Notes: a model not told the origin generated them from the letters alone. 64,000 nucleotides of DNA from a virus (IMGVR_UViG_3300042922_001062:1-64000); one strand, 5' to 3'. Shown: positions 11,846 through 47,215, counted from the first letter of the stretch. Program-made: numbers and translations.

Positions 11846-11876
11846 GGCGTCGCCCCTGTGCCTTTTTCGATGTTGA

Positions 11877-30353: not shown

Positions 30354-31481
30354 ATGAACCGGATGTATTCGGTCCTCACCGTCAAGGCGGTGGAGGATGA
30401 CCAGCGCATTATCCGCGGCACCGCCACCACGCCGTCGCCGGACCGCATGGGCGATATCGTCGAGCCGCTCGGCGTGACCTTCCAGAACCCGCTGGTGCTG
30501 CTTCACCAGCACGACAGCGACCGGCCGGTCGGCACGGTCACCTTCGACAGGCCGACGGCGAAGGGCATCACCTTCGAGGCGAGGCTCCCGACGATCGAAG
30601 AGCCCGGGCCGCTGAAAGACCGCGTCGACACCGCCTGGGGCGAGATCAAGGCCGGCTTGGTCCGTGCCGTCTCCATCGGTTTCCGAGCGCTCGAATACTC
30701 GTGGATGGATGATGGCGGCATCCGCTTCATCTCCACCGAGGTGCTCGAGCTCTCTCTCGTCTCCGTTCCGGCCAACGCCGAGGCGGTGATCTCCACCATC
30801 AAGTCGATCGACGCCCCTGTGCTCGCCGCGACCGGCAAGGGGCCGAAGGCGTCCGATCGGCCTGCACCTCCCGGCGTCTCGGGGAAATCCGTCAAACCAG
30901 TGAACCTGAGGCCGAAGGAGGCCAGGACCATGAAGACCATCGCTGAGCAGATTGCTGCTCTCGAAGCGTCGCGGCAGACCAAGGCCGCGCGCATGGCTGA
31001 AGTCATGCAGAAGAGCATCGACGAGGGCCGCTCGACCGACGCCGCGGAGCAGGAGGAGTTCGACACCCTTGAGCAGGAAGTGTCCGCGCTCGACGGCGAC
31101 CTCAAGCGCCTCCGCGCGCTGGAGAAGGCGCAGGCCGCCACCGGGAAGCCGGTGATCGCCAATCAGATCCGGACGGCCGAGCAGGGCACCACCGCGCGTT
31201 CGGGTGTCACCCTGAAGTCCGCGGCGCCGGATAAGGGCATCCGCTTCGCGCGGTACGCCAAGTGCCTCGCCATCTCCACCAAGACCCATCAGTCCGTGGT
31301 GTCGGTGGCCGAGGCCATGTACGGCGGCAAGGATGACGACTTCATCGACATCGTGAAGGCCGCTGTCTCGGCGATGACCACCGGCAACACCGATGCGCTC
31401 ATCGGCAACGAGGGCGGTTTCGCCGACTTCGTGGAATTCCTCCGCCCGATGACGAGTGTCAACCAAGCGGTCGCGATTTAG
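30354..31481 (+). pseudogene. Prohead protease fused to major capsid protein, 5' part (split by satellite)
   Basis: Residues 1-~160 form an HK97-type S78 prohead protease: LVLLHQHDSDRPVG gives the His, ELSLVSVPANAEA the Ser. After a Pro-rich linker, MKTIAEQIAALEASRQTKAARMAEVMQKS begins the delta (scaffold) coiled coil and N-arm of the HK97 capsid. An internal ATG at 30930 preceded by AAGGAGG (30915-30921) could start the capsid alone. The capsid frame runs to FLRPMT at the 18-bp repeat and then into ~9 foreign codons and a stop. The protease part is intact and could still be made. The 3' part is at 47211-48089; joined across one repeat it gives 657 residues in one frame. Confidence 0.95.
31436..31453. 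repeat. Satellite attL core
   Basis: ATTCCTCCGCCCGATGAC, identical to 47198-47215. It encodes part of the F-L-R-P-M-T motif of the helper MCP. Flanks differ immediately outside the 18 bases on both sides (A-x before versus T-x; G versus C after), which defines the core. Confidence 0.95.
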
Positions 31482-31501
31482 CGAACACTTTCAATATGTT
31501 G

Positions 31502-31526
31502 AGCCCGGCCGTGCGCCGGGCTTTTT
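31502..31526 (+). terminator. Strong terminator just inside the satellite left end
   Basis: AGCCCGGC (31502-31509) pairs with GCCGGGCT (31515-31522) with a 5-base loop, followed by TTTT. It is the first satellite structure met by transcription coming from the helper terminase/protease genes and would cut late transcription before the rest of the helper structural operon. Confidence 0.9.
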
Positions 31527-31629
31527 CGTTTCCGTAGTGTCCACAGCGTTCAAGAAAATCAATGGCTTACACGGGCACCCGGTGCCTCCATGCGACAAAT
31601 GAGCGACAACGTAATCGAGGGAACTGGCT

Positions 31630-31902
31630 GTGAACGCGACAAAAAAAGCCGAAGGTGAAATCCTCTACGGGGTAAAGGCCATCGCGAAGTTTCTCGGGGT
31701 GACGCGCCGGCAAGCGCAACACCTCGTCGACTCCAAGGCGGTGCCAAGCTTCAAGATGGGGCGGACGGTGTGCGCCCGGCCCGAGCGGGTGCGAAGCGTG
31801 ATTGAAGCAGCGGAGAACGGCAGGGCCGCGCCAAGCGATCAGGTGGACCAACCGCAGGACGGCGGGCAGCTTAACCTTCTCGGCGGCGGCGAACATGGCT
31901 AG
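31630..31902 (+). CDS. Excisionase/AlpA-type HTH protein, left copy
   Basis: 90 residues from GTG 31630. [49 protein letters not shown] is an AlpA/Xis-type winged helix: first-helix G-V-x-x-I, recognition helix T-R-R-Q-A-Q, wing [10 protein letters not shown]. It is paralogous to 44695-45090 at the other end (shared VCAR wing). Overlaps the antirepressor gene by eight bases. First gene of the satellite rightward operon, so probably a regulator. Confidence 0.75.
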
Positions 31903-32959
31903 CGCCAGTATGCTCCCGATCGTCACGGTGTCGAATGGCATCGTGATTGCCTCCAGCCGCGACGTGGCGGCCTATTTCGACGCAGACCATCGCGTGGTGC
32001 TGCTGGCGATCGATACGCTCATGGTTGAGGCCCCCGACGTAGCCGAGGCACACTTCCGCGAGCACCACGGCGAGGCCAGGCACTACGACATGACGCGCGG
32101 TGGCCTAGCGCTGCTGGCGCGCTCGCTGAGCGGTCCGCAGGTCGGGCGGTGGCGTGAGCGCTATCTCGAAGCCTTCGACCGCCAGCAGCGCGCGCTGGGG
32201 CAGGGCAGCGCGCTCTCGGTGCGTCAGCATCAGCCGAGTCCGTCGCCGGCGTTGGTGCCTGCCCTGCCGGACAACCTTGCCGATGGTGAGCCTCTCACGA
32301 TGTCGAGCCGGGAGATCGCCGACCTCACCGGCAAGGAGCACGACAACGTCCGCCGGGACATCAAGAACCTCGCGGATGGGCTTTCCCTCAGCTTTGAGGA
32401 AAAGTCCGAACCGTCGGCAGGCGGGCGCCCCTCGAAGGTGTTTCTCCTTCCGAAGCGTGAGTGCCTGATCCTCGTCTCGGGGTACAGCATCGAGCTGCGT
32501 GCCCGTATCATCGATCGCTGGATGGAACTTGAGGTGCGGCAGGCGGACCCGGTGGCGATGTTCAACCCGTCCGATCCGCGCATCGTGTCGGCCGTGCTGT
32601 CCCATTGGCATCAGGAGGCCACGACGGCACACGCAGCGCTTGCCAAGGCCGAGGGCACGCTGGCGCGGATCGAGACCACTGCCGGCTCTCTCTGCATCAC
32701 GGACGCTGCGAAGGCGCTCTCGCACCCGCCCAAGGCGCTGTTCGCCAAGCTCTACCGCAACCATTGGACCTATCGGCGCGGTGGCAAGGGCGATTGGCTG
32801 GGCCATGCCGACAAGTGCCGTGCCGGCCTGCTGGATCACCAGCCTACGACTTATCAGCGTGACGGCGAGACGGTGATCGGCACGCAGGTCGTCGTGACAC
32901 CCAAGGGATTGCGGAAGCTGGCCGAGCTGCTCGCTCACGATCCGGATTGGAGGGACTGA
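31895..32959 (+). CDS. Phage antirepressor (Rha-like plus KilA-C)
   Basis: 354 residues. Residues 1-~85 look like a Rha-type domain ([33 protein letters not shown]), residues ~130-205 a second Rha-like domain ([24 protein letters not shown]), and the C-terminus a KilA-C/ANT domain ([31 protein letters not shown] ... [15 protein letters not shown]). Such proteins neutralise CI-type repressors. In a satellite it could induce the resident helper; which repressor it targets is unknown. Starts at ATG 31895 overlapping the upstream HTH stop. Confidence 0.85.
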
Positions 32960-33186
32960 TGCCCGACATCATCGACGTCGACTGGGAATGCTGTGACGCC
33001 GAGGGTGAATCCTTTGAGCACCACGCCGAGCCGGACAAGGTGGCGGAAGGCCTGCTGATCGACGAGCCAGTGCTGGTGCGCTACCCCAACGGCCGTATAG
33101 CTGATGGCAACCGCATCGTGGTGACGGAGCGTGGCCTGGAGGCGCTGAAGTCCTTCGTCATCGAGGAATCGAAGGGCAGCCACTGA
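32959..33186 (+). CDS. Hypothetical acidic protein
   Basis: 75 residues from ATG 32959, coupled TGATG to the antirepressor stop. VDWECCDAEGESFEHHAEPDKVAEGLLIDEPVLVRYPNGRIADGNRIVVTERGLEALKSFVIEES; the C-terminal half resembles the winged end of KilA-C proteins (VTERGLEALKSF). Could modulate the antirepressor. It stops just before the cos-like region. Confidence 0.55.
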   Translation: MPDIIDVDWECCDAEGESFEHHAEPDKVAEGLLIDEPVLVRYPNGRIADGNRIVVTERGLEALKSFVIEESKGSH

Positions 33187-33482
33187 GGGGGGGAGGTCAA
33201 AAGGTCAGACGGCGTCCGTCTCTGGACCGGCGCCCCCTACATGCAGAGATTTTTTCCTCCCTGGACAAATTCGGGGTGCGTACCAGCGCCGCGTACTACG
33301 TAATATCCATATGATATCAGGCAGATAGCCTCGGTACGCACCCTGCGTACCGCGCGTACTAAGTGCGCACTGCGTACCACTGATAGCAGAGGCCCCGGGG
33401 GGGTATGCGGAACGTCAGGGACGCCCTTCTCTGCACCGGCGGCCTCACCAAAACTCTCGCAAAGCCAGATTGAGGTCCCGGA
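33187..33482 (+). other. Non-coding region carrying the satellite cos-like site
   Basis: About 300 bases without a gene. Starts with a G-run (GGGGGGGAGGTCAAAA at 33186-33201) like the helper site, then a short hairpin GACGGCGTCCGTC (33209-33221), then the 48-base core 33224-33271 identical to helper 28000-28047, then GGTGCGTACC (33275-33284). Unlike the helper it continues with further GCGTAC-type elements at 33290-33297, 33333-33342 (inverted), 33343-33351, 33354-33360 and 33370-33378. The downstream gene is a TerS-like candidate. Read as the packaging signal of the satellite. Confidence 0.7.
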
Positions 33483-33854
33483 ATGTCTAATCTGGCTTCC
33501 GAGATGAGCTTCGCGGCGCGCGTCGATGAGCGCGAGCGGATGATGCTGCAGGCGATCAGCCATGCGGGATGGTGGATGTCGCCCGACGGCCGGATCGGCG
33601 AACGGGATGCCGCGGCGCTCCTGGGGTACGGACACCCGGATTCATTCCGGAACGCGAGACGTCGCGCGGATCCTGGTGGGTGGCCACGTGTATTTCGCCT
33701 CGGCGGGAACGGAAACAAGCTGACCTATCAGGTCCGAGATCTGGCGGAGTTCGTCGAGCGCAAAGCAAATCCGCCGGCCGAAACCTACGATATTTTCCGC
33801 AAAGTCAATCGCGCGGGATCGGCGCTCTCCGACGCCCGTCGTAAGCTTGCTTGA
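33483..33854 (+). CDS. gpNu1-like small terminase candidate
   Basis: 123 residues. Residues ~35-95 form a winged helix: GRIGERDAAALLGYGHPDSFRNARRRADPGGWPRVFRLGGNGNKLTYQVRDLAEFVERK. The combination of helix-turn-helix, GGNGN wing and Y-x-x-x-x-L-x-x-F-x-E-R matches the DNA-binding domain of lambda gpNu1-type TerS. The short C-terminus lacks the long coiled coil of the helper TerS. It follows a cos-like region and precedes the MCP, exactly where TerS belongs. A MerR/excisionase-like regulator is the alternative. Confidence 0.5.
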   Translation: MSNLASEMSFAARVDERERMMLQAISHAGWWMSPDGRIGERDAAALLGYGHPDSFRNARRRADPGGWPRVFRLGGNGNKLTYQVRDLAEFVERKANPPAETYDIFRKVNRAGSALSDARRKLA

Positions 33855-33874
33855 CCTTGATAAGGAGCGAGCTG

Positions 33875-34903
33875 ATGCGCATCAATTCCGCCGGACACCT
33901 GCCCGCGATCATGGGCTTTCTCGCCCGGGCGCACCTTGCCGGTGTTTCGCCCTTGGAGATCGCGGCGAAGGATGGTGCTCCGCCCGACCTTCAGCTCCTC
34001 GTCAGGGCTGCGACCGGTGCCGTCATGCTCGGCGACGTCGCTGCTGCTGGCGCGCTGCGCGCGGCGGTCGAAACCTTCATCGGGACGCTGCGCGGGCGCT
34101 CCATATTCTACACGCTCCTCGCTGATGGCGCGTTCGTCCGCGCGCCGATCCGCACACGGCTCACAGCAGTCGAGAACGGCGTGGTCGCCTACGTCGTGAG
34201 CGAGGGGCGTGCGAAGCCGGTTTCGAGGATCGGGCTCGACGCCGCGGGACTGGAACGCGCCAAGGCCACTTCGCTCATCGTGCTGACGCGCGAGGCTGTG
34301 TACGCATCCTCGCCGGCGCTGCTCGACTTCCTGACCTCTGAGCTGCAGGGCGCGGTCTCGGCGGCCGTCGACGCGGCCTTCATCGCAAGGATCATCGACG
34401 ACGGCTCGCCGAGCCTCACGCCGACCTTCAGCGCGTCGGGAGCGGGCATCGACGACATCAGGTTTGACCTCCGGCGACTGCTCGACGCCGTGAACGTCAC
34501 GGGCAGCGGCCATCTGGCATGGCTGATGTCGGCAGACGTCGCGAACCGCCTCGCCGTGCTCGTGGAGCACTTTCCCGGTATGGCGCCGAACGGTGGGACA
34601 TTGCTCGAGCAGCCGGCCTTCGTTTCCGAGGCCATCGACCCGGGCTCGCTGCACTGCCTCAACGCCGCGTCGATCGCGGCGGACAGCGAGGCCATCATCG
34701 TGCGGTCCAGCGACGTCGCCAGCGTCGTTATGGATACCGCCCCAGCGCAGGACAGCTCCACGCCGGCGGCGACGCAGAACGTGTCGATGTTTCAAACCAA
34801 CTCGACCGCCGTGCTCGCGGAGGCGTTTTTCGGAGCGCAACGGGTGCGGCCGAACGCGCTGGCGACGCTGACGGACATCGCCTGGGGCGACGTGGCCTCA
34901 TGA
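33875..34903 (+). CDS. Satellite HK97-fold major capsid protein
   Basis: 342 residues. Aligned by eye to the 3' part of the helper MCP: AYVVSEGRAKPVSRIGLDAAGLERAKATSLIVLTREAVYASSPALLDFL parallels helper DAQWVGEGKGKPLTKFGVGR, and SMFQTNSTAVLAEAFFGAQRVRPNALATLTDIAWGD parallels helper SMFQTNSVAFRAERTLNWARRR. N-terminal delta coiled coil and protease are absent; a ~80-residue helical start replaces them. ATG 33875 has AAGGAG upstream. ATGA overlap with the decoration-type gene. Confidence 0.85.
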   Translation: MRINSAGHLPAIMGFLARAHLAGVSPLEIAAKDGAPPDLQLLVRAATGAVMLGDVAAAGALRAAVETFIGTLRGRSIFYTLLADGAFVRAPIRTRLTAVENGVVAYVVSEGRAKPVSRIGLDAAGLERAKATSLIVLTREAVYASSPALLDFLTSELQGAVSAAVDAAFIARIIDDGSPSLTPTFSASGAGIDDIRFDLRRLLDAVNVTGSGHLAWLMSADVANRLAVLVEHFPGMAPNGGTLLEQPAFVSEAIDPGSLHCLNAASIAADSEAIIVRSSDVASVVMDTAPAQDSSTPAATQNVSMFQTNSTAVLAEAFFGAQRVRPNALATLTDIAWGDVAS

Positions 34904-35727
34904 GCAGGGTCGATCCCGCTACCGCAGCAGCGCTGAATAAAATTGACGTCCGCGTCGCGGAGATCGACGCCGCGCTCAAACGCCTCGACGCTGATGACTA
35001 CAAGCACTTCAAAGATTTGCACCGCGCCGGTGCAAACGAGAAGGTGCGGCAGCAGCTCAACGCGGAACGCGCGGTGCAGATGCACAACCGGGCGCGGGTG
35101 CTCGCAGGCGAGCCGGTTGAACAGCCAGCACCCACGGAGCAGGCCAAGGCACTGCGGCTGCCGCCGGTGGAGCTCTATGGCAAGGCCGAGCGACCCTGCA
35201 GAATCGAGCCAGCCATTACCCGCAGAGACGACTTGGTCGGCGTTGGCGATAGAACCGCCGATGAGATTCTCGATGTCGCCGAAGTTGAAGAGCGCGTGTC
35301 AGCGGACATCGCGCAGGCGATCGAGGTCGCCCACGCCAAGATGCGGGAGGCAATGACGCGCAATCCCACGTACGCGTTCGACTTGTCGACGCTGATCATG
35401 CTGAAGACCACCATCATCCAGGCGATGGCGCAGGCGACAATCATCGAAGCCGTCGGCGGTGTGCTGCGGCGCGAGCTCGAGGTGAAGCTCACCGATCGGA
35501 TCGCAGTGCTGGAAAAGCGGATCGAGGAGTTTGAGCGCGGCGGCTTCGAGTATCGCGGCATCTATCAGCGCGCCCAAGCCTACAGACGAGGTCAGGTCGT
35601 CACCCATGACGGAAGCATGTGGGTGGCCGCCAAGGACACCGTGCTGCCGCCGGGCGCGCCGGAAGGCATGAACGAGTGGACTTTGGCCGTTAAGCGTGGC
35701 CGGGACGGGAAGGACGCCACCCGATGA
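34900..35727 (+). CDS. Head-associated protein sharing the helper's C-terminal module
   Basis: 275 residues. N-terminal helical region (VDPATAAALNKIDVRVAEIDAALKRLDADDYKHF), middle helices VEERVSADIAQAIEVAHAK and IIEAVGGVLRRELEVKLTDRIAVLEKRI, and a C-terminal ~55-residue module YRGIYQRAQAYRRGQVVTHDGSMWVAAKDTVLPPG ... WTLAVKRGRDGKDATR that matches the end of the helper's collagen-like protein (49860-51146). This module is a small aromatic beta domain of CBM5/12 style. Placed directly after the MCP, it is probably a head-surface or head-fibre protein. Confidence 0.6.
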   Translation: MSRVDPATAAALNKIDVRVAEIDAALKRLDADDYKHFKDLHRAGANEKVRQQLNAERAVQMHNRARVLAGEPVEQPAPTEQAKALRLPPVELYGKAERPCRIEPAITRRDDLVGVGDRTADEILDVAEVEERVSADIAQAIEVAHAKMREAMTRNPTYAFDLSTLIMLKTTIIQAMAQATIIEAVGGVLRRELEVKLTDRIAVLEKRIEEFERGGFEYRGIYQRAQAYRRGQVVTHDGSMWVAAKDTVLPPGAPEGMNEWTLAVKRGRDGKDATR

Positions 35728-35909
35728 AAGAGCAAGCCGTCGCCCTAACGAAGCGGTGCGTTGCGGCCTTCGTCGAGAAGATGGGCAGGCAGCCGGATGC
35801 GCACGAGCTCGATCTGCTCGCTGCGGCCGCGTGCCGGCATCTCCAAGACCGCGAGCACATGCGCCGATGGCCCGCCGCGACGGCGTCCGGATCTTCCACG
35901 GTGAACTAG
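35724..35909 (+). CDS. Hypothetical small protein
   Basis: 61 residues: MKEQAVALTKRCVAAFVEKMGRQPDAHELDLLAAAACRHLQDREHMRRW. One helical hairpin followed by a Ser/Ala tail. ATGA coupled to the preceding gene. No family recognised. Confidence 0.55.
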   Translation: MKEQAVALTKRCVAAFVEKMGRQPDAHELDLLAAAACRHLQDREHMRRWPAATASGSSTVN

Positions 35910-35943
35910 CTCAAGCCTAGACCTCATAGCCTTAGGTGAGGCG

Positions 35944-36234
35944 ATGCCAAACTCAGAGATGCTCACAACTTACTCCCATGGTACCGTTTCAGTGACCAAG
36001 GGATCAAAGACCGTCCGGGGCAAAGGCGTTTTCTGGCTGGACGTGCGGTCGTGCGACAGCCTCGAAGCCGGGGACCGCTGCCTCACCACCATCGCCTCAG
36101 TAGACGCGACCGATTTCACCACATTGGAGCTTGCTGTGCCTTGGTGCGGCGAGACAGCGGAGGACGTCCCTTACGTGATCCGCTTCGACGCTCCGCAGCG
36201 ATTTCCCGGCTACAGGGGGCGCGCCGATGGCTGA
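35944..36234 (+). CDS. Beta-rich fibre N-terminal-like protein
   Basis: 96 residues: SHGTVSVTKGSKTVRGKGVFWLDVRSCDSLEAGDRCLTTIASVDATDFTTLELAVPWCGETAEDVPYVIRFDAPQRF. Same order of strands as residues 1-80 of the next gene (STGTVSVPSGGTTVTLTGG ... VPYVLRFDAPSRF), so the two arose by tandem duplication of a fibre attachment domain. The overlap of eight bases with the fibre gene indicates co-translation. Confidence 0.7.
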   Translation: MPNSEMLTTYSHGTVSVTKGSKTVRGKGVFWLDVRSCDSLEAGDRCLTTIASVDATDFTTLELAVPWCGETAEDVPYVIRFDAPQRFPGYRGRADG

Positions 36235-37324
36235 CCTCTACAGCACCGGCACCGTCTCGGTGCCCAGCGGTGGCACGACTGTTACGCTGACCGGGGGGCT
36301 CTTTAGCGGTGTTCTCGCCGGCGATACGATCGAGATCGGCGAGCTTCCCGCGAAGACGATCGCATCGCCGACCGACGCCAGTCATCTGGAACTGGCCGTC
36401 GCGGTGACGTCCGATCAGGTGGATGTCCCCTATGTGCTTCGCTTCGACGCCCCGTCGCGCTTCACCTCCGGCTATCTCGCGGAGCAGGTGCGGGCGCTGA
36501 TCGCGCAGGCGGGCATCATCAAGGCCGCCCGGCCAAACTACGAGGTGCAGAGCCTCGGCGGCAACGCACCGCCTGGCTCTCCTGTGACGGGAGACATGTA
36601 CGTCGTCGGCACCGCGCCGACCGGCGCATGGGCTGGGCGGGCGAATAATTTGGCGCAGTGGACCGGCTCGGCGTGGCTGTTCACAGCGCCGGATCGAGGA
36701 ACGACGGTCGTTAGCGTGGCGACGGGTATTGTGTCGATCTGGGGCGGCGCGGCGTGGCTACCTTACATAGGCCCTGGCGCTTTCATGCAGACGCTGATGC
36801 CGGCGGCGACGCAGGCCGCGGCGCAGACTACGCTTGGGCTCGATAGGGCCGCCCGCACGCTCTGGACGGCGGATATCTCCACTCCTGTCGCGGCGATTAA
36901 CGTCCCGCTCGCGGCGGCGTATCGGGCGTTCAAGCTGACCATCGGCTGCCTCACCGGCTCGGATGCGACAGCCAACTTGATACACCGCATCAGCCGCGAC
37001 GGGTCCACGGTCGACACGGGTGCATCGGACTATCAGGGGTCTGCGCTTGTTGTCGTGGGTAGCGGAGTTTCCGCGGCGGCGCGGACGGCGTCGGATGCGT
37101 TTCTCGGCACGTTGACGGCCACGATGGTAGCAATGGACATCACGCCTGGCGCGGCCGGTCTGCCGTACATGTGCACTTCCCAGTCTATGGAGTTCGCCTC
37201 TGGATATCGTCTTGATTTCCGCGGTACCCGTGCCGCGAATGTCGGGCGCGCTCAGTTCATCCAGATCTACCCGTCAGCCGGCAATCTGACTGCTGGGACG
37301 CTGACGCTGGCCGGGTATCCGTGA
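36227..37324 (+). CDS. Fibre/spike protein with DUF2793
   Basis: 365 residues. N-terminal beta domain 1-85 as in the preceding gene; SGYLAEQVRALIAQAGI linker helix; DUF2793 at ~110-165 (PVTGDMYVVGTAPTGAWAGRANNLAQWTGSAWLFTAPDRG); an Ala-rich shaft; C-terminal beta region ending RLDFRGTRAANVGRAQFIQIYPSAGN. Such proteins are tail or capsid fibres that contact the host surface. The helper distal genes in this window do not include this type, so the satellite may bring its own adhesin. Confidence 0.8.
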   Translation: MADLYSTGTVSVPSGGTTVTLTGGLFSGVLAGDTIEIGELPAKTIASPTDASHLELAVAVTSDQVDVPYVLRFDAPSRFTSGYLAEQVRALIAQAGIIKAARPNYEVQSLGGNAPPGSPVTGDMYVVGTAPTGAWAGRANNLAQWTGSAWLFTAPDRGTTVVSVATGIVSIWGGAAWLPYIGPGAFMQTLMPAATQAAAQTTLGLDRAARTLWTADISTPVAAINVPLAAAYRAFKLTIGCLTGSDATANLIHRISRDGSTVDTGASDYQGSALVVVGSGVSAAARTASDAFLGTLTATMVAMDITPGAAGLPYMCTSQSMEFASGYRLDFRGTRAANVGRAQFIQIYPSAGNLTAGTLTLAGYP

Positions 37325-37373
37325 CGCCCGCCGCCGGGCTTCGAGGTGGTGGCTCGGCGGTCAGATATGAAAA

Positions 37374-37395
37374 AGGCCGCCCCGAAGGGCGGCCT
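37374..37395 (-). terminator. Terminator for the leftward secreted-protein gene
   Basis: AGGCCGCCC (37374-37382) pairs with GGGCGGCCT (37387-37395) around a CGAA loop; read leftward the stem is followed by TTTT (37371-37374). It lies between the convergent fibre gene and the 105-residue gene. Confidence 0.8.
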
Positions 37396-37409
37396 CTCTC
37401 ACCGTCCGG

Positions 37410-37727
37410 CTAGCACGGTGTCTGCTTATTGGTGCAATCGCGACGGCCGTCATCCGAATTGCCGCTGCCGGCGGCCTTGGCCTCGCCGGGGTTCATGGAG
37501 TTGTTGCGCCCCTCGCTGGGCATGGTCGATTTCGGCACACCGGAGCCAACGGCCGGGGACTGGTCCTTGTAGCGGCTCTCGGTGGTGCCCGAGCTATTGT
37601 CGGAGCCGGTTGTAGCTCCCGCCGTGGAACCCGAGTTCCCTTGGCCGCTGCTCTGGGCCATCACAGGTGTGCCGAGCGCCAGTAATGCTGCCAGCGTGGC
37701 GATGGAAGTCGTCTTGGCATAGTTCAT
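37410..37727 (-). CDS. Secreted low-complexity protein
   Basis: 105 residues. Clear signal peptide: MNYAKTTSIATLAALLALGTPVMAQSS with cleavage after VMA. The mature part is disordered (Ser/Gly/Thr/Asn-rich) with two Cys near the end (CTNKQTPC). Similar exported peptides occur as free-standing genes in Hyphomicrobiales. Leftward, with its own terminator: a cargo (moron) gene on the satellite. Confidence 0.75.
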   Translation of the reverse strand: MNYAKTTSIATLAALLALGTPVMAQSSGQGNSGSTAGATTGSDNSSGTTESRYKDQSPAVGSGVPKSTMPSEGRNNSMNPGEAKAAGSGNSDDGRRDCTNKQTPC

Positions 37728-37943
37728 GAGTTCCTCCTTCGATATGAGGCGAACCCACAGCTCTAGATGACGTTCCGACCAAATTGGCCGCTGAGGTACA
37801 CGGCTAATGCACCTCGCGCCAACGTGAGCACTTTCCTGCCAGGCGGCTATGTCGATTTATTCCTTCCGCGAATCGTCAATCATCGCCTCGATGGCCCCGA
37901 TCATCACTTCGAGGTCGGCGATCAGATGCAGTAACGATTTGCT

Positions 37944-38055
37944 CGACTTCCGCGGCACCCGCATCGCCAATCCAGGCCGTGCGCAGTTCATCCAGATATA
38001 CCCGTTCGCCGGTAATCTGGCAGCCGGCCCTCTCACGCTGAAGGACATTCTGTAG
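37944..38055 (+). pseudogene. Remnant of a second fibre C-terminus
   Basis: About 110 bases whose translation LLDFRGTRIANPGRAQFIQIYPFAGNLAAGPLTL nearly repeats the end of the fibre at 37204-37310. The rest of the copy is missing; upstream sequence (37849-37943) is unrelated. The remnant shows that the fibre region underwent duplication and replacement, with the secreted-protein gene inserted between copies. Confidence 0.8.
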
Positions 38056-38066
38056 GAGCATCTCAC

Positions 38067-38504
38067 ATGAACATTCTGGACGTCGACGGCGTGATCAAGC
38101 CGGCCGACCCCGCCTGGATCGCCCAGCGCGCGCTTGACGCCCTCCCGGTGGCTCCGACGCCAGCGGACGTCATCGCCGAGCGCGAGCGGCGCCTGGCCCT
38201 CGGATTCGCCTACGACTTCGAAGACGAACGCGGCGTGCACCACATCGCGACCACCCCGGAAGACATGAAGGGCTGGGACGAGGTGACCATGCTCGCCAAC
38301 GCCGCCATCAATGCCGGCGTGGCGGCGACCGAGATCCTCATCCTCACCAGCACCGGCCCGGTCACCGTGACGGCCGCCGAGTGGCAGCAGGTGCTCCTCG
38401 CCTCGGCGAACTTCCGCCAGCCGATCTGGCAGACCAGCTTCGCGCTGCAGGCGATGGACCCGATCCCGGCTGACGTCACCGACGACGTGCACTGGCCGGA
38501 TTGA
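38067..38504 (+). CDS. DUF4376 phage protein
   Basis: 145 residues. N-terminal acidic arm (VDGVIKPADPAWIAQR), then DUF4376: RERRLALGFAYDFEDERGVHHIATTPEDMKGWDEVTMLANAAINAG and TSTGPVTVTAAEWQQVLLASANFRQPIWQTSFALQAM. The domain occurs in phage tail-fibre assembly-type proteins, next to fibre genes. Fits a fibre accessory. Confidence 0.8.
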   Translation: MNILDVDGVIKPADPAWIAQRALDALPVAPTPADVIAERERRLALGFAYDFEDERGVHHIATTPEDMKGWDEVTMLANAAINAGVAATEILILTSTGPVTVTAAEWQQVLLASANFRQPIWQTSFALQAMDPIPADVTDDVHWPD

Positions 38505-38684
38505 CCTCCCAAGCGCCGCACGGTCATGACCGCTCGAGTTGATGGGCCGCGCTTGGTCTATTCGGGCACGAGGAAAGCCCAGCAGAATCCTGATTATCCA
38601 CCACTGGCCGGAAGAGATCGGAAAGGCCGCTGGCCACGGCAGTAGCGGCTTGAACAAGTCTCGCCCGGCGCGCCACAATTGCGG

Positions 38685-39647: not shown

Positions 39648-42077
39648 TCAGGCAGCCGCAGGCTTTTGCCGAGCCACGTACATTGCCATAGGCACGCACG
39701 GCAAATGGTGATTCGAGCTCGACATGAGGAGCAATCGGTTCACGTTGTTGTCCTGGAACCCGCCGATCCGTATCACCGATTGCAGCCATCCGATGGAATG
39801 CGGCACTCTGGCCTTCTTGATAAGGCGTTGGATGGCTGTCCTACTTCGGGAATGTCGCGCCGCCAATTGCGCTTCGAAGTTTGGCTTCACTTCTTCCGCC
39901 TTCAGAGACTTTAGGTAGTTGAACGTGCGACGGATCACCGATCGGAACTCGACGAATTCAGGTGCTTCTCTCAAGCTAAGGATATCGTCGCACTGGGTCG
40001 GAAACTCCAGTGGGGCTGACCGGATGTCTGCCGCAAGCGAATGTAGCGTCGATGAAGTTCCCAAATAGCGGCGGTTCAAAGCTGCGTTCAGCTCCAGCCA
40101 ACGATGCTTGCTGTCAGTGAGGATCTGCGCCCCCGTGGCTTGCGCCAAATACATGGCGATTTCGAAGTTGGGTGCCAACTTCATGAGCTGGATCTGTCCA
40201 CCTGTTTCGGGAGCCAAGCTCTCCGGTTGGAGCACGGCAAGCGGGTCGGCCTCTCGGAGCTGGCCGATTTGCGGCATCAGTTCGTCGAGATCGACTGTTT
40301 CGCCCTGCGGCATTGCTCGAGCGATCTGATTGCGTAGCCCCTCTTCGGACAAAGCGAGGAGTGTGCGCTTGAAGTCGTCGCGCATCAGTTCCTCCATCCG
40401 AGGGTCGTTTGAAATCTCGAACTCAAGGCCGGATGCCCGCGCCCTGGCCATCGCCATCATTTGATCGCGCAGGTGGATGTCGAAGTCACAAGGATCGGGG
40501 ATCAGGTTGACCAGACCCGCCTCGACCAACGGCATCATGCTCACGAAGAAATGGATCGTCTTCAACAGTTCGCCCCGGTACTGACCCGGGTGCTCGGTCG
40601 GACGGAATTTCTTATTCAGGGTGCCGGGGTGGACGAAAGGGTGCTGAATCAGCATTTCACCGAAATACAGCGGCGAACCAATCGCGAATTCGTTGATGTG
40701 CTGGGGATGGAGGGAGCCGGTATAGACCGATCGAAGCTGCCCGTCCGGCTTTGGGAGTAAGTCGAGCAGGTCGGTTTCCAGTGGCCATAGGCCTTCGTAA
40801 AGGCTATAGGCACTTGCAATCTTTTCGTCGGTCATCTCGCGCCGAACTTGGGTCCAGTCCTTTCTGTCCAGTTCAAGGAGGTTCGACAAGCCGCGGAGAA
40901 GCATAAGGTTTCGCTCGCGGATGCTCCTAGCCGTCCAGCTCGGCCTTAGCTCGGATGGCTTCGGCTCGCAGCATCTGGCGAAGAGGTCGCCGGACCCACA
41001 ACCACAAGAGTCCTTCGGTTTCAGCGGTGACACCGGCAGATCCTTTTGAAGGAACGCGCGCGGCTTTTCTGACCGGCCAAACTCATCCTGATAGTGAACA
41101 TGTCCGCTGTCGAATTTGGCAAACATTTCACCGCCAAAAAGGTGGAGTTCGGTCTCTGGTGGTCGTAGTGTCTCCCGCAACTCCTTCCAAGATTTCTTCA
41201 CCGTTTTCTCTGGATAAAGCCATGCCTCGCGTCCAGCAGCGATGTATCTTTCGGAGCGAGCCTTGAGGATGAAGTTGATCTCCGAGACTTGTTGATCATC
41301 GAGTTCGCGAGACCGGATGAAATCGATCGTCGATACCATCGTCGGATGAAAGTTCCGAGCGAAGGTCCGGTTCTCAAGCGGATTCACGTCCGGGTTCTTT
41401 GCATACTCAAGATTTGTCAGGATCAGGCAGTGGTCTGGTCCCAGAGGGAAGATGGTCTGCGAACCTTTCCATGCAATTGCCGGATCGTCGGTTTGGTCGC
41501 AACCAAGGTCTGCGGGAGGAGCAGCATAGTTATAAATCGTTACCGGATGGTCGGTAATGATGAACTTGACAGAGGCATTTCCCGCCGAGACAATCTCCCG
41601 GACGCCAGTGGTCCAAATGGTACAATTGAGAAAACGAATACCCTGCATCTCAAGCATAAGCTCATTCTGGGAAAGCTCAGGGTACTGTCGCTTTAGCCAC
41701 TCTAGGCCCTTTGGAGTGCGAAGCTTTTGGATGTCGATATACTCGAAAAAGGTCTTGAAGTGGGAGTGCCATGCGGCCTTGTCCAAGCCAGAGAGGGCGC
41801 GGACCGCGTCCGCGCCGCGGGTGTCAATGTCGCCGAATAGTTGTCGCTCGATTTCATCGTTTACCGCCGTTCCAAAGAATGTTGAATAAAGATCCCTTTG
41901 AACGAACGCACGGGATGTTGGAGAGTCAAACAATGACCGCCCTGTGTTTTTTCCTCCATCCCTCCGTGTGAAAATCGGCGGTGACAAGTCGAGATAGAAT
42001 AAGGTTCTGCCTCCGTCGGTGAGGAAGCGTTCTTGATACCATTGGGGAACGTAGTGATTATTTCTTCTTACTGACAT
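39648..42077 (-). CDS. DUF4238 plus SEC-C cargo protein
   Basis: 809 residues. N-terminal DUF4238: RRNNHYVPQWYQERFLTDGGRTLFYLDL, the middle part FIITDHPVTIYNY and WKGSQTIFPLGPDHCLILTNL (its core strands). A SEC-C zinc motif follows at ~350 (DSCGCGSGDLFARCC). The C-terminal half is large and unknown. DUF4238 occurs in isolated genes of mobile elements; an anti-phage role has been suggested by position in such regions but is not shown. Leftward, with the next two genes, as cargo of the satellite. Confidence 0.75.
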   Translation of the reverse strand: MSVRRNNHYVPQWYQERFLTDGGRTLFYLDLSPPIFTRRDGGKNTGRSLFDSPTSRAFVQRDLYSTFFGTAVNDEIERQLFGDIDTRGADAVRALSGLDKAAWHSHFKTFFEYIDIQKLRTPKGLEWLKRQYPELSQNELMLEMQGIRFLNCTIWTTGVREIVSAGNASVKFIITDHPVTIYNYAAPPADLGCDQTDDPAIAWKGSQTIFPLGPDHCLILTNLEYAKNPDVNPLENRTFARNFHPTMVSTIDFIRSRELDDQQVSEINFILKARSERYIAAGREAWLYPEKTVKKSWKELRETLRPPETELHLFGGEMFAKFDSGHVHYQDEFGRSEKPRAFLQKDLPVSPLKPKDSCGCGSGDLFARCCEPKPSELRPSWTARSIRERNLMLLRGLSNLLELDRKDWTQVRREMTDEKIASAYSLYEGLWPLETDLLDLLPKPDGQLRSVYTGSLHPQHINEFAIGSPLYFGEMLIQHPFVHPGTLNKKFRPTEHPGQYRGELLKTIHFFVSMMPLVEAGLVNLIPDPCDFDIHLRDQMMAMARARASGLEFEISNDPRMEELMRDDFKRTLLALSEEGLRNQIARAMPQGETVDLDELMPQIGQLREADPLAVLQPESLAPETGGQIQLMKLAPNFEIAMYLAQATGAQILTDSKHRWLELNAALNRRYLGTSSTLHSLAADIRSAPLEFPTQCDDILSLREAPEFVEFRSVIRRTFNYLKSLKAEEVKPNFEAQLAARHSRSRTAIQRLIKKARVPHSIGWLQSVIRIGGFQDNNVNRLLLMSSSNHHLPCVPMAMYVARQKPAAA

Positions 42078-42134
42078 TGCCCTTTAGCATCGCTCCCGCC
42101 GCTAGTTGCTGCAATTCTTACCGGCTTGGGCGAA

Positions 42135-43397
42135 TTAAGGATGGCCTCGCAGCGCGATCATCTTGTTCGCGACACGGGCGGCCAAGTCGGAATGAAACTC
42201 CTCAAGGCTCTCCGCGGCTTCGATGAGGGCTTCGTCGGCACCGTCATCGTCCATCGCTTCGACCAGCTGCTCGACCTGTTGCGCAAGCTCTTCGAGCGCC
42301 TGATAGAGCCGGGTGCATTGGTCCAGAGTGAGCGACGGGTCGGCGAGGGCAGCGGGGACATCCTTGGCGAGATGCTTCGCCCTCTCGCCGCGCTCGCGCA
42401 GCAAAGTCATCCAGTCCGTCGCCATGTCGACGCGCTCCAGCAAAGCCGTCAGCTCCGCCCGTTTCAGGGTCGCCTCGATAGTGGTCTCCTTCAACGCAGG
42501 TCCGCCGGGGCGGTGGGGGGACGTGACGGCCGCCCGAACGGCCAGTGCGCTCGATGGTGGCGCAGCGCCGATCGTGGCCATGAAATCCCCTTCGGGCACG
42601 ATGCGCACGATATGGCCGGCGGCGAGCATGGCTTCGGCCTTGAGGTGCTTCGCGCTCTTGGGCGTGCCGAAATGCACGTCTCGATCGCCGAGCACGAGCA
42701 TGGTGGTGTGGCGGGTGACGCCCGGATGAACGTCGGCGCCAGCGGCCGCGGCAAGATCGGCCGCGGCGCTCTTGCCGAGCTCCAGCTTGCCGGTGAACAC
42801 CACGACCTGGCCCGACAACGGCCCGTCGCCGACAGCCTCTCGGCGGATCGGAGCCGCCTTCTCGCCGGAGACCGGCAGTTCAACGCGGCGGAACCAGCCG
42901 TCCAGGTCCAGGCCGGTTTCTTCCATGGCGCGGTGCAGGATCACGCCGGCGGCGCGCGCGTCCTCAAGAGCGTCGTGGTGACGGAAGGCGATGCCGAACT
43001 CGGCGGCAATGATCGGCAGGCTGTAGCTCGCCCTGTCGGGCCATGCCCGCCGGGCGACGCGGATTGTGTCGAGCCAGCGGTTGCCGACGGATGCCAAGCC
43101 ATGGCGATCGCAGGCCCGCATCAGCGACGTCCGGTCGAAGGGTCCATGGCTGATAACGGGCCGGTCACCGAGAGCATTGAGAAGCCAGTCGTGCCGGTGG
43201 CGGAAGGGCAGGCACCCCGCGACGGCTTCCTCGTCGATGCCATGAATGCCGACGTTAAAGGCGTCGAAATAGTCCTCCGGGTCGATGAGGTGACATTCGG
43301 CGTGGATCTCTCTGCCGCCATCGAACACGACGACGCCAAGCTGGCAGATGCTGCTGTAGTTCGCGTTCGCGGTTTCTACATCGATCGCGACGAACAT
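42135..43397 (-). CDS. DnaQ-like exonuclease fused to BRCT
   Basis: 420 residues. 3'-5' exonuclease 1-165: FVAIDVETANANYSSICQLGVVVF (Exo I, DxE), PVISHGPFDRTSL (Exo II) and FRHHDALEDARAAGVIL (Exo III, H-x-x-x-x-D). BRCT domain ~200-290: SGQVVVFTGKLELGKSAAADLAAAAGADVHPGVTRHTTMLVLG. C-terminal ~120 residues helical. Related enzymes repair or degrade DNA; on mobile elements they can act against invading DNA. Confidence 0.9.
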   Translation of the reverse strand: MFVAIDVETANANYSSICQLGVVVFDGGREIHAECHLIDPEDYFDAFNVGIHGIDEEAVAGCLPFRHRHDWLLNALGDRPVISHGPFDRTSLMRACDRHGLASVGNRWLDTIRVARRAWPDRASYSLPIIAAEFGIAFRHHDALEDARAAGVILHRAMEETGLDLDGWFRRVELPVSGEKAAPIRREAVGDGPLSGQVVVFTGKLELGKSAAADLAAAAGADVHPGVTRHTTMLVLGDRDVHFGTPKSAKHLKAEAMLAAGHIVRIVPEGDFMATIGAAPPSSALAVRAAVTSPHRPGGPALKETTIEATLKRAELTALLERVDMATDWMTLLRERGERAKHLAKDVPAALADPSLTLDQCTRLYQALEELAQQVEQLVEAMDDDGADEALIEAAESLEEFHSDLAARVANKMIALRGHP

Positions 43398-43468
43398 GGC
43401 TCCCTCCCATACCTTCCGGAAGGTTGCACATCGGCTCCGTTCACGGCAAGCGCGCCTGTTCTGCGACG

Positions 43469-44317
43469 CTACTCGGTGAGCAGCCCCGCCAAACGCCCCT
43501 TTGCGATAAGATAGCTAACAAAGGAAGCGCACGCTCCCAGCATGAACAACGCGTCAGCCTCGTCGACGTTCGCGGCGTCTTGGTCGAGCAGCGAGTGCCG
43601 TATGCCTTTCTCGTCGCTGGCATAGCCATAAAGGGCCGAGAATCCTTTCTTCATTGCCTCGTGGATGGCGCCAGCCTTTTCCAGTTTGACCAGAGCGGGG
43701 CCAAGTGTAGTCGATCCCGGCGCTAGCTGTACTGCGACCGCTTCAACAGCATGGATAGCTTCGCGCACGCAGTCCGGATACTTTCCTGCAGTGGCAGCTT
43801 CTATCGAGGACCTCAAATGGGCATAGGCGCCGGTGATGCCGACAGCGCGTGCGGACTTGAGTGCTGCTTCGAGAGCTGCAGCCTCCGTCGGATCGGTTAT
43901 GGGGGCAATAGTATCCCCGTCGACCACGCGATAAGCTGCGTGACAATTAACTAAAACGTCGGCAATATGCTTGCGGAATGCGGCTGGCGTATAATTGAAT
44001 CTTAGTATCCATTCAATAAATCCAAAAACTTCTACGTAGTCGCCGTTCTCTATAATTGTCTGAATTCGTCGTATTTGTTGAAAGTGCAAAGAAATGTATT
44101 CACTAGAGAATCTATTTTGATGAAATACAAACTCCGCCTTGAGAATTGCATTCCATGGCTCGGCAACGGTGTGGTCGCCGCGCCTTGGAAGAACATGCAT
44201 GTCGAACACGAAGAACAATTGAGCCCTCAGTTGAGGGGAAAGTTTTTTCAAGGCGAGTTGCGTTGGTAACGGTGCGCGACCTTCGGCTTGCTCAAAGGAG
44301 ACTAATTTCCTGTCCAT
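43469..44317 (-). CDS. AbiJ-NTD4-type abortive-infection protein
   Basis: 282 residues. C-terminal signature typical of AbiJ-NTD4 proteins: CVREAIHAVEAVAVQLAPGSTTLGPALVKLEKAGAIHEAMKKGFSALYGYASDEKGIRHSLL, then ANVDEADALFMLGACASFVSYLIAKG. The N-terminal half (LFFVFDMHVLPRRG, YVEVFGFIEWILRFNY) is the sensor part. GC content falls in the 5' half of the gene (43900-44130), a sign of transfer. Predicted abortive-infection role, hence protection of the lysogen against other phages. Confidence 0.75.
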   Translation of the reverse strand: MDRKLVSFEQAEGRAPLPTQLALKKLSPQLRAQLFFVFDMHVLPRRGDHTVAEPWNAILKAEFVFHQNRFSSEYISLHFQQIRRIQTIIENGDYVEVFGFIEWILRFNYTPAAFRKHIADVLVNCHAAYRVVDGDTIAPITDPTEAAALEAALKSARAVGITGAYAHLRSSIEAATAGKYPDCVREAIHAVEAVAVQLAPGSTTLGPALVKLEKAGAIHEAMKKGFSALYGYASDEKGIRHSLLDQDAANVDEADALFMLGACASFVSYLIAKGRLAGLLTE

Positions 44318-44694
44318 GATCCGCCCCACTTCCAATGCGTGGCAACCTGCCATTGGAGTACCGGCAGCGCAATGAGCGCCTTCGCGATCCCCTCTTGGCG
44401 GAGGGGGCGAAGCAGCGCATAAATGGGATTGGGCTTGAACACCCGGACGAAAGTTATAGCGCGACGCCCTTGGCGGGGCTTGGCGCCGAAGCACAGCGCC
44501 CTTGGCGGGGCGGTGTGCAAGGTCGCACCTTGGCGGGTGCGCCGGACCTGGCCATCATGGCCGGGAGCGGTGCGCTATGTCCAGAGGGTACGCCCTTAAA
44601 AGCGCGTCGGCCTGTAACTTTCGCAGGTGTTCAACTCCCGGCTGCCGGTCTGCTACCGGCGACGGCCTTGAACAGCCGAACGAAAGTACATCCC
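44318..44694. repeat. Regulatory region with three CCTTGGCGGG repeats
   Basis: CCCTTGGCGGGG at 44467-44478 and 44499-44510 and CCTTGGCGGG at 44528-44537, evenly spaced by about 30 bases (three helical turns), each followed or preceded by short inverted segments (GGCTTGGCGCC, GGTGCGCC). They lie between the divergent AbiJ-type gene and the integrase-proximal HTH gene, and could bind the HTH proteins or an initiator. Confidence 0.55.
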
Positions 44695-45090
44695 ATGAAC
44701 ATGAACGCCAGCCGGCCGAGACCGGCCAGCATCCCACCGACCGAGGTCGCGCGGAAGCTTCTCGACATCCGTCACGACCTCCAGCGCGAGCTTCAGCGCG
44801 TGGACACCCTGCTTGCAATGCTCGGCGCCCCGGTGGCGGCGGCAGGGTGTCAGCCGGACACTCCGGCGGGACGTGGCCCCAATTTCGGGGAGACGTCGGC
44901 GAGTGATCTCCTCTATGGAGCGCCAGCCATTGCGGGCTATCTTGGCCTTACCGAGAAGCAGGCCCGGCACCGTATCGAGGCGGGGAATATTCCGGCCTTC
45001 AAGATCGGCGGCACGGTGTGCGCCCGCCAATCCTCCCTGTCCACATGGCTCGCGAACCTCGAAGCCGCAGCCGCGCATGCGGAGGACTGA
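44695..45090 (+). CDS. Excisionase/AlpA-type HTH protein, right copy
   Basis: 131 residues. N-terminal helix (EVARKLLDIRHDLQRELQRVDTLLAML), then the winged helix LLYGAPAIAGYLGLTEKQARHRIEAGNIPAFKIGGTVCARQSSLSTWLANLE, paralogous to the left copy at 31630. The position three genes before the integrase makes it the better candidate for directionality factor. ATG 44695. Confidence 0.7.
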   Translation: MNMNASRPRPASIPPTEVARKLLDIRHDLQRELQRVDTLLAMLGAPVAAAGCQPDTPAGRGPNFGETSASDLLYGAPAIAGYLGLTEKQARHRIEAGNIPAFKIGGTVCARQSSLSTWLANLEAAAAHAED

Positions 45091-45092
45091 TC

Positions 45093-45344
45093 ATGCTGGT
45101 GGATCATGATTTCGGCGGACTGCTTCCGCCGGCAAGCGTCGATCGCATCGCCACGCGCCGCGCGCTCGCGTCGATCATCGAGCGGGCGCTCGCGCTGCGG
45201 GATGCCCTCGATGATGACGCCGATCTTGAGGAGTGCGGCGACGCCGAGCCCAGCCTCGGTGCATCGGAGGCAGGCGCGCACTTCTGGTCTCAGATCGGAT
45301 GGGCGAGGGGAGGCGACGGCGACCTTGAATGGGGGGGGTCATGA
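45093..45344 (+). CDS. Small acidic phage protein
   Basis: 83 residues: VDRIATRRALASIIERALALRDALDDDADLEECGDAEPSLGASEAGAHFWSQIGWARGGDGDLEWGGS. The D-x-E-P-S-L-G-A motif with a following W-rich tail is common in small proteins of rhizobial phages and islands. Function unknown. Tightly packed between HTH and next gene. Confidence 0.65.
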   Translation: MLVDHDFGGLLPPASVDRIATRRALASIIERALALRDALDDDADLEECGDAEPSLGASEAGAHFWSQIGWARGGDGDLEWGGS

Positions 45345-45760
45345 CCGTGCGCTCTATGCTCTCGGTGGTCGGGGGAACTGACCTCGCGGAGGGTATGCCC
45401 AAATTTGGGGGTACCCCCTTCCGCTCCTCCAAGGTGTTCATCAACCCCGACTGGTCGGCCATCTGCCACGCACTGGAAGGTATCGACCCTGAGCACCTCC
45501 AGACGGCGCCCATAGCGTCGCTGGTGGCCGGTATGGAGGCGCGCCTGCGGTTCTGCTGCCAGACGCTCTCCCTGCCGTCCTACGCGTGGCAGGAGGGCCA
45601 TACGGCCATAGCGAAGTGCCTCGACGATGCGTCGGCGCTCTCCGACTTCGCGGCGCAGTGGGGAATCTCCACAGACTGGATACTACTAGGGGACGCCCGC
45701 TCCTATGTTCGGGTGCGCACCTTCGGCGCCGCCGGTAGCATCCGCTGGGCCGCTGACTGA
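45341..45760 (+). CDS. Hypothetical HTH-like protein
   Basis: 139 residues, start overlaps the upstream stop. The second half PSYAWQEGHTAIAKCLDDASALSDFAAQWGISTDWILLGDARSYVRVRTFGAAG contains a helix pair SDFAAQWGISTDWILLGD typical of XRE-type phage regulators. No other family hint. Located just before the integrase gene. Confidence 0.5.
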   Translation: MTVRSMLSVVGGTDLAEGMPKFGGTPFRSSKVFINPDWSAICHALEGIDPEHLQTAPIASLVAGMEARLRFCCQTLSLPSYAWQEGHTAIAKCLDDASALSDFAAQWGISTDWILLGDARSYVRVRTFGAAGSIRWAAD

Positions 45761-45891
45761 CTATCCGCCCGGCGCCGCCTCGCGCTGGCGCCGGGCATTT
45801 CGATACGACATGAGAATTTCATCAAGGCATTGAGCATGCTGGGCTTTCCCGGGCTTCCTAAAGCTGCATGCGACAACCGAGGCAAATCACC

Positions 45892-47190
45892 ATGGCGAGT
45901 GTTCGCAAGCGCAAGTGGATCCACAACGGCAAAGAGGGTGAAGCGTGGGTCGTCAACTATACCGACCAGGGGGGCAAGCGCCGGCAGAAGGCTTTCGACC
46001 GGAAGAAGGAAGCCGACGCTTATCGGACGGAGATCGAAGCGGAGATCAAGCAGGGAGTGCATACTGCTCTCAACGAGAGCGTGAAGGTCTCTGAGGCCGT
46101 GCGGGCGTTCTGCGTCGACTGCCAGAAGCGCGTGACGGCAGGAACGATGACGAATGGAGGATTCAAGAGCTACCGATGGAAGCTCGAAAAGTACGCAGTG
46201 CAGAAGTTCGGCACCCGCAAGGTTTCCACGATCACGGCTGAGGAGGTGCAAGATTGGGTGGACGAGTTGCTGCGGACGCTGTCGCCGACCTCTGTCACGG
46301 GCATCTACGTGGCCTTCGGCGTACTGCTATCGTTCGCGGTCCGGCGCCGTTGGGTGCGTAGGAACATCCTGCGGGACATGCCGTGCAAGCTACCGGCAAG
46401 GCCAAAGCGCAAGGCGGTGCCGACCAAGGCAGATATTTTGGCCCTGATGCACGCCGCATCTACGATGGAGCGCGGCGAGAACCTCCTGACGTTCGTCAAT
46501 CGGCTGGTCGTTGTGGCCTGCGGCGTGTTCGGCGGCTTCCGCCCTGGAGAAACGTTCGGCCTTCAATGGGAGGACGTCGACTGGCAGAAGGGCGTCATCC
46601 ACGTCCGCCACAGCCACACTAAAATGGACGGGCTGAAGGCGCCCAAGACCGAGGCGGGATATCGCGATGTTCCAATAACCGCCCCCATTGATCGGGCCTT
46701 GCGGCAGTGCGCGCGCTACTGGACGATCCGCCGGCTTGCTGAAGGGCCGGGTTTCGGCAGCGATCACCCGAAGGCGATCTTCTCGCGGATCGCGCGCATG
46801 TGGGAGGGCGAGTTTATCGCGGTGCGGCCGGAGGACCTGAAGGGGTTCGTAATCCTGACCAAGGTGGGCAAGCCGATGACGGCGACGGCGAGCGCAACGA
46901 CGTTCTGGTCCCGGCTGATGAAGGCGGCGGGCCTGCAAACGGAGGACGGGAAGAACCGCTTCACGCCGCACGCGCTGCGCCACGCCGCGGCGAGCCTGCT
47001 TATTGAGGCGGGTCTCGACGACATGAACCTGAAGCGCTTCATCGGGCACGCCTCGATCCAGACGACGAAGGATATCTACGGGCACCTTTTCCCGACAGAC
47101 GAACGGATGGTTGCAACAACGGCAGCGATTGCGCGCGATCTGGACGCAACAACAGAGCGACAAACATCTGTAAGGCACCCGCTGCAATAG
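45892..47190 (+). CDS. Tyrosine integrase of the satellite
   Basis: 432 residues. N-terminal Arm-DNA-binding domain (RKRKWIHNGKEGEAWVVNYTDQGGKRRQKAFDRKKEADAY), core-binding helices ~65-170, catalytic domain with Arg I in VFGGFRPGETFGLQW, H-x-x-R in PHALRHAAASLLIEAG, His in GHASIQTTKDIYGHL with the nucleophile Tyr (DIYGHL). Ends seven bases before the right att core. ATG 45892 fits the family start better than 45868. It recombines the 18-bp core with the helper MCP gene. Confidence 0.95.
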   Translation: MASVRKRKWIHNGKEGEAWVVNYTDQGGKRRQKAFDRKKEADAYRTEIEAEIKQGVHTALNESVKVSEAVRAFCVDCQKRVTAGTMTNGGFKSYRWKLEKYAVQKFGTRKVSTITAEEVQDWVDELLRTLSPTSVTGIYVAFGVLLSFAVRRRWVRRNILRDMPCKLPARPKRKAVPTKADILALMHAASTMERGENLLTFVNRLVVVACGVFGGFRPGETFGLQWEDVDWQKGVIHVRHSHTKMDGLKAPKTEAGYRDVPITAPIDRALRQCARYWTIRRLAEGPGFGSDHPKAIFSRIARMWEGEFIAVRPEDLKGFVILTKVGKPMTATASATTFWSRLMKAAGLQTEDGKNRFTPHALRHAAASLLIEAGLDDMNLKRFIGHASIQTTKDIYGHLFPTDERMVATTAAIARDLDATTERQTSVRHPLQ

Positions 47191-47197
47191 GAAAAAT

Positions 47198-47215
47198 ATT
47201 CCTCCGCCCGATGAC
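47198..47215. repeat. Satellite attR core
   Basis: Second exact copy of the 18-bp core. Reading frame on the helper side is preserved: base 47198 and base 31436 are both the third base of the same helper codon. Confidence 0.95.

Follow-up and report, generated by a model that had tools for sequence, protein, structure and literature searches.

The window analysed here is a stretch of viral DNA of 64,000 nucleotides (IMGVR_UViG_3300042922_001062:1-64000), and its segment 31436-47215 is, judged by gene content, a phage satellite of 15.76 kb inserted in the major capsid protein (MCP) gene of the surrounding prophage. This insert is very probably a helper-embedded satellite with a mechanism of excision from the capsid gene and of packaging by that prophage. 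Sequence comparison gives good support for integration and for the circular form; we infer excision on induction, packaging by the helper, the effect of a terminator and what the capsid protein encoded by the element does. All features described lie on the plus strand unless stated otherwise.

The prophage MCP gene is split at the sequence ATTCCTCCGCCCGATGAC, present at 31436-31453 (attL core) and as an exact 18-bp repeat at 47198-47215 (attR core), with no third copy in the window. Joining 30354-31453 to 47216-48089 yields 1974 nt in a single open frame, coding for 657 amino acids plus a stop codon. The 5' part (30354..31453) comprises protease, scaffold and the start of the capsid domain, matches the PHROG 617 major head protein (8e-75) and the PHROG 80 protease (2e-28) and forms part of the joined open reading frame (ORF). 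The 3' part (47198..48089) matches PHROG 617 at profile positions 368-626 (2e-71). Both parts align to the same intact relatives, with identities of 77-83% and 85-88%, and are therefore taken as halves of one gene. The right core copy starts 7 bp past the stop codon of a tyrosine integrase gene that ends at 47190. Other exact repeats of at least 18 bp in the window form a single run, near 28000/33224, which is the packaging-site copy discussed below. The G+C content of the element is 62.3%, compared with 64-66% in its surroundings. The repeat, the restored frame and the position of the integrase are all as given in a preliminary description of this DNA. An origin as an intein, intron or transposon was set aside in view of the 15.8-kb length of the insert, its integrase, its Xis-like genes and its att sites.

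The MCP site is a true att site, as the preliminary description had proposed: it is occupied in three other loci, a circular contig carries the attP expected for it, and many relatives have it empty. When MCP relatives in IMG/VR were compared for flanks with and without insert, the site was uninterrupted in 79 of 80, the sole exception being the interrupted locus L004. The expectation that uninterrupted relatives would carry the same core held in part: such relatives exist, but the full 18-bp core of the window pair was not found in intact MCP relatives, and 11 bp of it are present in four of them. The core common to the family spans only about 8-12 bp (TTCCTSCGSCC), corresponding to the FLRP codons.

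An integrase search found the other three loci with an insertion at this MCP motif, namely L004 (the same locus as L010, in the isolate Microvirga lupini), L005 and L043. Their integrases are 66-68% identical to that of the window and lie directly before the MCP 3' half; the 5' half lies approximately 10 kb upstream, and between the halves each element encodes a capsid homologue. Core-to-core insert sizes are 9.9, 10.5 and 9.6 kb, respectively. An own capsid protein is present in all five MCP-type elements. The contig L022 has identical 56-bp ends and closes to a circle of 10,700 bp. Its attP, TATTCCTGCGTCCAAGAAC, equals the product of crossing attR with attL of L005 but for one core base, and its arm motifs, at -53 and +167 from the core, match those of the integrated copies. 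Together, the three insertions and the circular contig with the predicted attP indicate that the element belongs to a mobile family. A class-wide integrase survey at a strict cut-off gave one positive among 385 genomes, that of Microvirga. Within this family, L043 carries at 4224-5652, besides its capsid homologue, a separate ORF resembling the helper's protease domain. A homologous tape-measure-like protein of about 650-680 amino acids, which could set a shorter tail, is shared by L005, L022 and the terL-type element L027.

The strongest evidence for a helper relationship is a 75-bp cos-like stretch. The putative cos site of the prophage (28000..28074) ends 4 bp before the start of terS, and a copy lies within the element at 33224..33297 (75-bp alignment, 96% identity, E 1.7e-28), the sole significant DNA match between the two. 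In five pairs (the window, L004, L005, L027 and L037) the best match of an element to its own helper falls just upstream of terS, with bit scores of 69-121 against the own helper versus at most 40 against other helpers; the copy is thus specific to the own helper in five of six pairs. Since the packaging-site copy is specific to it, the surrounding prophage can be regarded as the helper of the element, which bears out the preliminary description on this point. L023, L029 and L082, which encode terminase homologues of their own, showed no cos-like copy, and a search with an exact 21-mer from the window copy gave no matches. The position of these sites, together with the precedent of 11capE from Escherichia coli NRG857c, the type element of the helper-embedded phage-inducible chromosomal islands (HE-PICIs; PMC10111431), suggests that they are cos-type packaging sites and that the satellite is packaged by the helper terminase. 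The L005 element contains the helper-matching stretch twice (12319 and 14618 in the merged sequence).

From left to right the element begins with attL, an in-frame stop, a terminator-like hairpin and a doubled arm motif. These are followed by an AlpA/excisionase-like protein (31630..31902; PHROG 18541, 2e-10; excisionase PHROG 12527, 3e-4), with homologues at the left end of relatives, and by a Rha/KilAC anti-repressor of the Bro-network type (31892..32959; Pfam Phage_pRha 9e-28, ANT 1e-18). The cos-like stretch comes next, then a protein of 123 amino acids without a family match (33483..33854) and the element's own HK97-fold capsid protein (33875..34903; Pfam Phage_capsid 1e-7). The latter has 342 amino acids, does not possess a protease or scaffold part and is 30% identical to the helper MCP. 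Its AlphaFold model, of moderate quality (predicted local distance difference test score 58) and serving fold recognition only, matched the HK97 prohead in Foldseek (E 6e-8). Searching IMG/VR with this protein as query returned no matches. The gene at 34900..35727 encodes a protein whose C-terminus resembles that of the helper's post-portal gene at 49626-51146 (PHROG 1289; 9e-13 on the longer ORF 34519-35727, in the last 56 amino acids, and 5e-46 in the helper gene). A tail/fibre-like small protein (35944..36234; PHROG 24607, 5e-6), a fibre-like DUF2793 protein (36227..37324; Pfam DUF2793 6e-17; PHROG 7049 tail fibre) and a DUF4376-like protein slightly below the Pfam cut-off (38067..38504) follow. 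A C-terminal piece of the DUF2793 gene recurs as a fragment near 37930-38055 (in the interval 37200-38055), a sign of local duplication and decay.

Cargo genes on the minus strand occupy the next section and encode a DUF4238 protein (39648..42077; Pfam 1e-14) and two candidate defence proteins. One is a DEDD exonuclease whose C-terminal part is weakly DNA ligase-like (42135..43397; Pfam RNase_T 2e-12; PHROG ligase matches; PADLOC PDC-S48 3e-23), the other an AbiJ_NTD4 protein (43469..44494; PADLOC PDC-S32 6e-54; Pfam 1e-9) with a homologue in L027. A PADLOC scan of the cargo of other satellites gave no matches. The element ends with a second AlpA-like protein, its domain C-terminal (44335..45090; PHROG 18541, 4e-9, residues 188-244), the tyrosine integrase (45868..47190; PHROG 1 integrase, 5e-58; motifs GFRPGE, HALRH, GH and IY), a second doubled arm motif and attR. 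Scanning the insert proteins against PHROG and Pfam revealed neither terminase nor portal, tape-measure or lysis genes. With an integrase, AlpA-like proteins, an anti-repressor and neither terminase nor portal found, the earlier assignment to a satellite-type element stands. The capsid protein of the element, its cos-like copy, the arm sites and the terminator had not been mentioned in the preliminary description.

The left arm-type site, a doubled GCGACA with 11-bp spacing, lies at 31592..31608, and its counterpart, a doubled GCRACA of the same spacing, at 47146..47162; both positions are conserved in relatives. The pattern GYRACA-N5-GYRACA has only these two matches in the window (31592 and 47146), compared with 0.08 expected. 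Of 61 integrase relatives, 26 have it no farther than 120 bp from the end of the integrase, versus 1% of random windows from the same loci; the motif therefore belongs to the whole integrase family, including users of tRNA genes, and is not special to users of late genes. At the left end, the interrupted 5' part of the helper MCP gene runs into a stop at 31481, directly past which lies a terminator-like hairpin (31501..31523) that folds at -19 kcal/mol and recurs in the same place in all four other MCP-type elements. A hairpin of this kind was present no more than 130 bp past the stop in 10 of 15 mapped left ends versus 3% of random windows; the P value of this comparison is too favourable, as the 15 left ends were picked once several of them had already shown the pattern.

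The proposed mechanism begins with the tyrosine integrase, which would recombine attP with the FLRP codons of the helper capsid gene. In the integrated state the capsid gene is split, with a stop codon and terminator-like hairpin behind its 5' half; a complete helper capsid protein should consequently not be made, and late transcription is expected to halt at this point. Upon induction of the helper, the integrase and an AlpA-type excisionase would cut the element out as a circle and restore the capsid gene, and the helper terminase would package the circle by recognising the cos copy that the element carries. The HK97-fold protein encoded by the element may modify the shell or add to it. As the truncated 5' product of the helper retains the protease and scaffold parts that the element capsid protein lacks, the two could conceivably act together, although we consider this doubtful. 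The preliminary description held that insertion removes the helper's capsid gene; the gene is indeed interrupted, but the interruption is better read as reversible. Its further proposal, that the element enters only cells already carrying a suitable helper prophage, is not supported, since integration of the circle off target or into the genome of an infecting phage is also conceivable.

Several observations weigh against a helper-embedded satellite that is excised and packaged in this manner. The cos match of L043 is weak (34 bits) and not above the cross-pair level, and L022, which is without a known helper, could instead stem from a tandem arrangement or from assembly. The insert proteins scanned, of which small uncharacterised ones remain, included neither a primase nor another clear replication protein. 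The window element is also longer than its relatives (15.8 kb versus 9.6-10.7 kb), and what look like gene remnants lie near 37.3-38.1 kb, such that it could be partly decayed. Its length and these remnants would equally suit a prophage remnant or gene-capture scar that is fixed in the MCP gene, is decaying and is no longer mobile. Such an origin is nevertheless unlikely given that the integrase is open with all its motifs, both arm sites and the core are intact, both MCP halves are still good coding sequence and a circular relative exists; furthermore, the 96% identity of the cos-like copy suggests recent matching to the surrounding helper.

The capsid protein and fibre-like genes of the element, and the terminase, portal and head-gene homologues of its integrase relatives L023, L029 and L082, raise the alternative that a small prophage or a capsid-forming element happens to be nested here, uses its own head for packaging and is independent of the surrounding phage. 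This is very unlikely: the window element yielded none of the terminase, portal, tape-measure or lysis genes sought, and the cos-like site in it reproduces the one of the surrounding phage, whereas elements with their own terL show none. Finally, the interruption, the terminator and the additional MCP would all suit a switch of capsid or late genes that serves host or phage, be it a domesticated insert silencing the prophage or a cassette swapping the capsid type, and not a parasite. We regard such a switch as highly improbable, for the differing targets of related elements (terL, portal, protease and tail), their patchy occurrence, the element's own att machinery and its cos copy better suit a selfish element.

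The integrase of the window element has relatives at other late genes. In a tree of 79 integrases, for which the root is unsure, the window sequence belongs to a clade of five (99% support), and a branch with 100% support parts 29 sequences, including all late-gene users, from 49 conventional integrases, which lie at the ends of prophages or at tRNA genes. L108, which by its flanks lies beside a chromosomal DUF305-like gene, falls on the late-gene side. Targets were assigned by reading the right and left flanks; as all loci were recruited through integrase similarity, the assignments do not amount to an unbiased survey. They comprise terL (L012, L024, L025, L026, L027, L029, L032, L033, L036, L037, L100 and L102), the MCP gene (the window, L004, L005, L043, L071 and L101), the portal gene (L103), a ClpP-like protease gene (L030 and L052) and tail genes (L082 and, tentatively, L023), those of L036, L052, L102 and L103 resting on a reading of translations. 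The integrase is co-oriented with the target gene in every locus with an assigned target. L029 and L032 had been candidates for portal insertions, which was ruled out by their left ends, both placed in the 3' end of terL. In L030 (1-13763) the two ends point to different genes, the left to a GpA-type terL fragment and the right to a gene for a ClpP-like protease, and do not fit a single target; deletion or recombination between sites is a possible cause. L074 shares the terL left end of L030. L023, L029 and L082 (with L112, L115 and L111) are larger inserts, measuring about 17 kb and located in tail or terL genes; they encode terminase, portal and head-gene homologues of their own and are possibly helper-embedded, capsid-forming satellites. 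The integrase of the terL-type member L102 is frameshifted into two frames (11229-12412), possibly representing a dead copy or a sequencing error.

The helper flanks hold terS (28079..28648, start codon inferred; PHROG 1206 terminase small subunit, 3e-30 on ORF 27956-28648), terL (28645..30324; PHROG 9, 3e-123) and portal (48515..49873; PHROG 2271, 4e-133) genes, in addition to genes for tail completion, tail tube, tape measure, tail tip and endolysin. The late region of the surrounding phage is therefore full apart from the split MCP gene. No second tyrosine integrase attributable to the helper was detected by motif scan (window 1-64000, L003), and helper att sites were not found. The record is flanked by host genes for an AI-2E transporter, tRNA-Asp and a histidine kinase. 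A tRNA-based helper boundary was rejected, the lone tRNA-Asp at 1127 having no repeat at the right end.

The preliminary description considered the combination of satellite gene content and a helper capsid att site to be new. This does not hold for the principle, since HE-PICIs of Enterobacteriaceae, including a case with a capsid-gene site and its own capsid gene, were described in 2023 (Tommasini, Mageeney & Williams; PMC10111431). In that work 11capE excises after induction and has a 258-bp cos-region match of 90% identity, and HE-PICI integrase matches in phage-gene surroundings are reported only among Enterobacterales (PMC10111431). Like the window element, HE-PICIs lie inside a helper late gene and are co-oriented with it. 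They further share with the present elements a size of about 10-20 kb, AlpA, a Bro-network regulator, an own capsid gene, an attP without replacement sequence, cos sequence in common with the helper, a doubled arm-like motif with 11-bp spacing and related integrases that use several late genes.

Other features differ. The HE-PICI integrase clade excludes the window integrase, which matches that of 11capE at 27 bits and 22% over 268 columns; the integrase of 11capE (L097) sits on a very long outgroup branch of 5.5 changes per column, and no 11capE protein matched any present element at 1e-5. The layout of the ends is opposite, with int at attR, the first AlpA-like gene at attL and the second before int in the window, whereas 11capE has int and alpA at attL. 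The HE-PICI zone order Integration-Bro-Replication-Late does not apply to the window element, and the primase and SSB of HE-PICIs were not found among its scanned proteins, of which small uncharacterised ones remain. HE-PICIs carry the doubled arm motif TGTATTGC, the window element a doubled GCGACA at both arms instead. Its target, an HK97-type protease-MCP fusion, also differs, and the hosts, where known, are Alphaproteobacteria as opposed to Enterobacteriaceae. Capsid-forming PICIs (cf-PICIs) likewise bear an HK97-type capsid protein, but they possess their own terminase, portal and capsid set, whereas the window element has the capsid protein only; a gene set of the cf-PICI style is seen only in the distant integrase relatives L023, L029 and L082. 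Gram-negative PICIs such as EcCICFT073, and P4, resemble the window element in AlpA, tyrosine integrase, size and a helper-like cos, but use chromosomal or tRNA-gene sites and contact the helper in trans only (PMC10111431).

No account of this lineage was found in the open-access literature on helper-embedded, alphaproteobacterial and cf-PICI satellites. Embedding of this kind is known from gut bacteria; the novelty, as far as found, lies in an integrase family unrelated to theirs, combined with the opposite gene order, in soil-type Alphaproteobacteria. On balance we lean towards the view that helper embedding evolved at least twice, an alphaproteobacterial integrase lineage unrelated to the HE-PICI clade having repeatedly switched to new conserved codons, in genes for capsid, terminase, portal, protease and tail proteins. 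Every such element would bring a stop and a terminator that lock the helper late operon at the insertion point until excision, and those without their own terminase would copy the cos site of their own helper. Embedding in helper late genes, with about twenty new target sites in Alphaproteobacteria, suggests a repeatable strategy and not a peculiarity of one enterobacterial integrase clade. Because each satellite copies the cos site of its own helper, satellite and helper pairs may be recognisable by sequence, and the assignment of helpers, usually hard for satellites, would become computable and testable.
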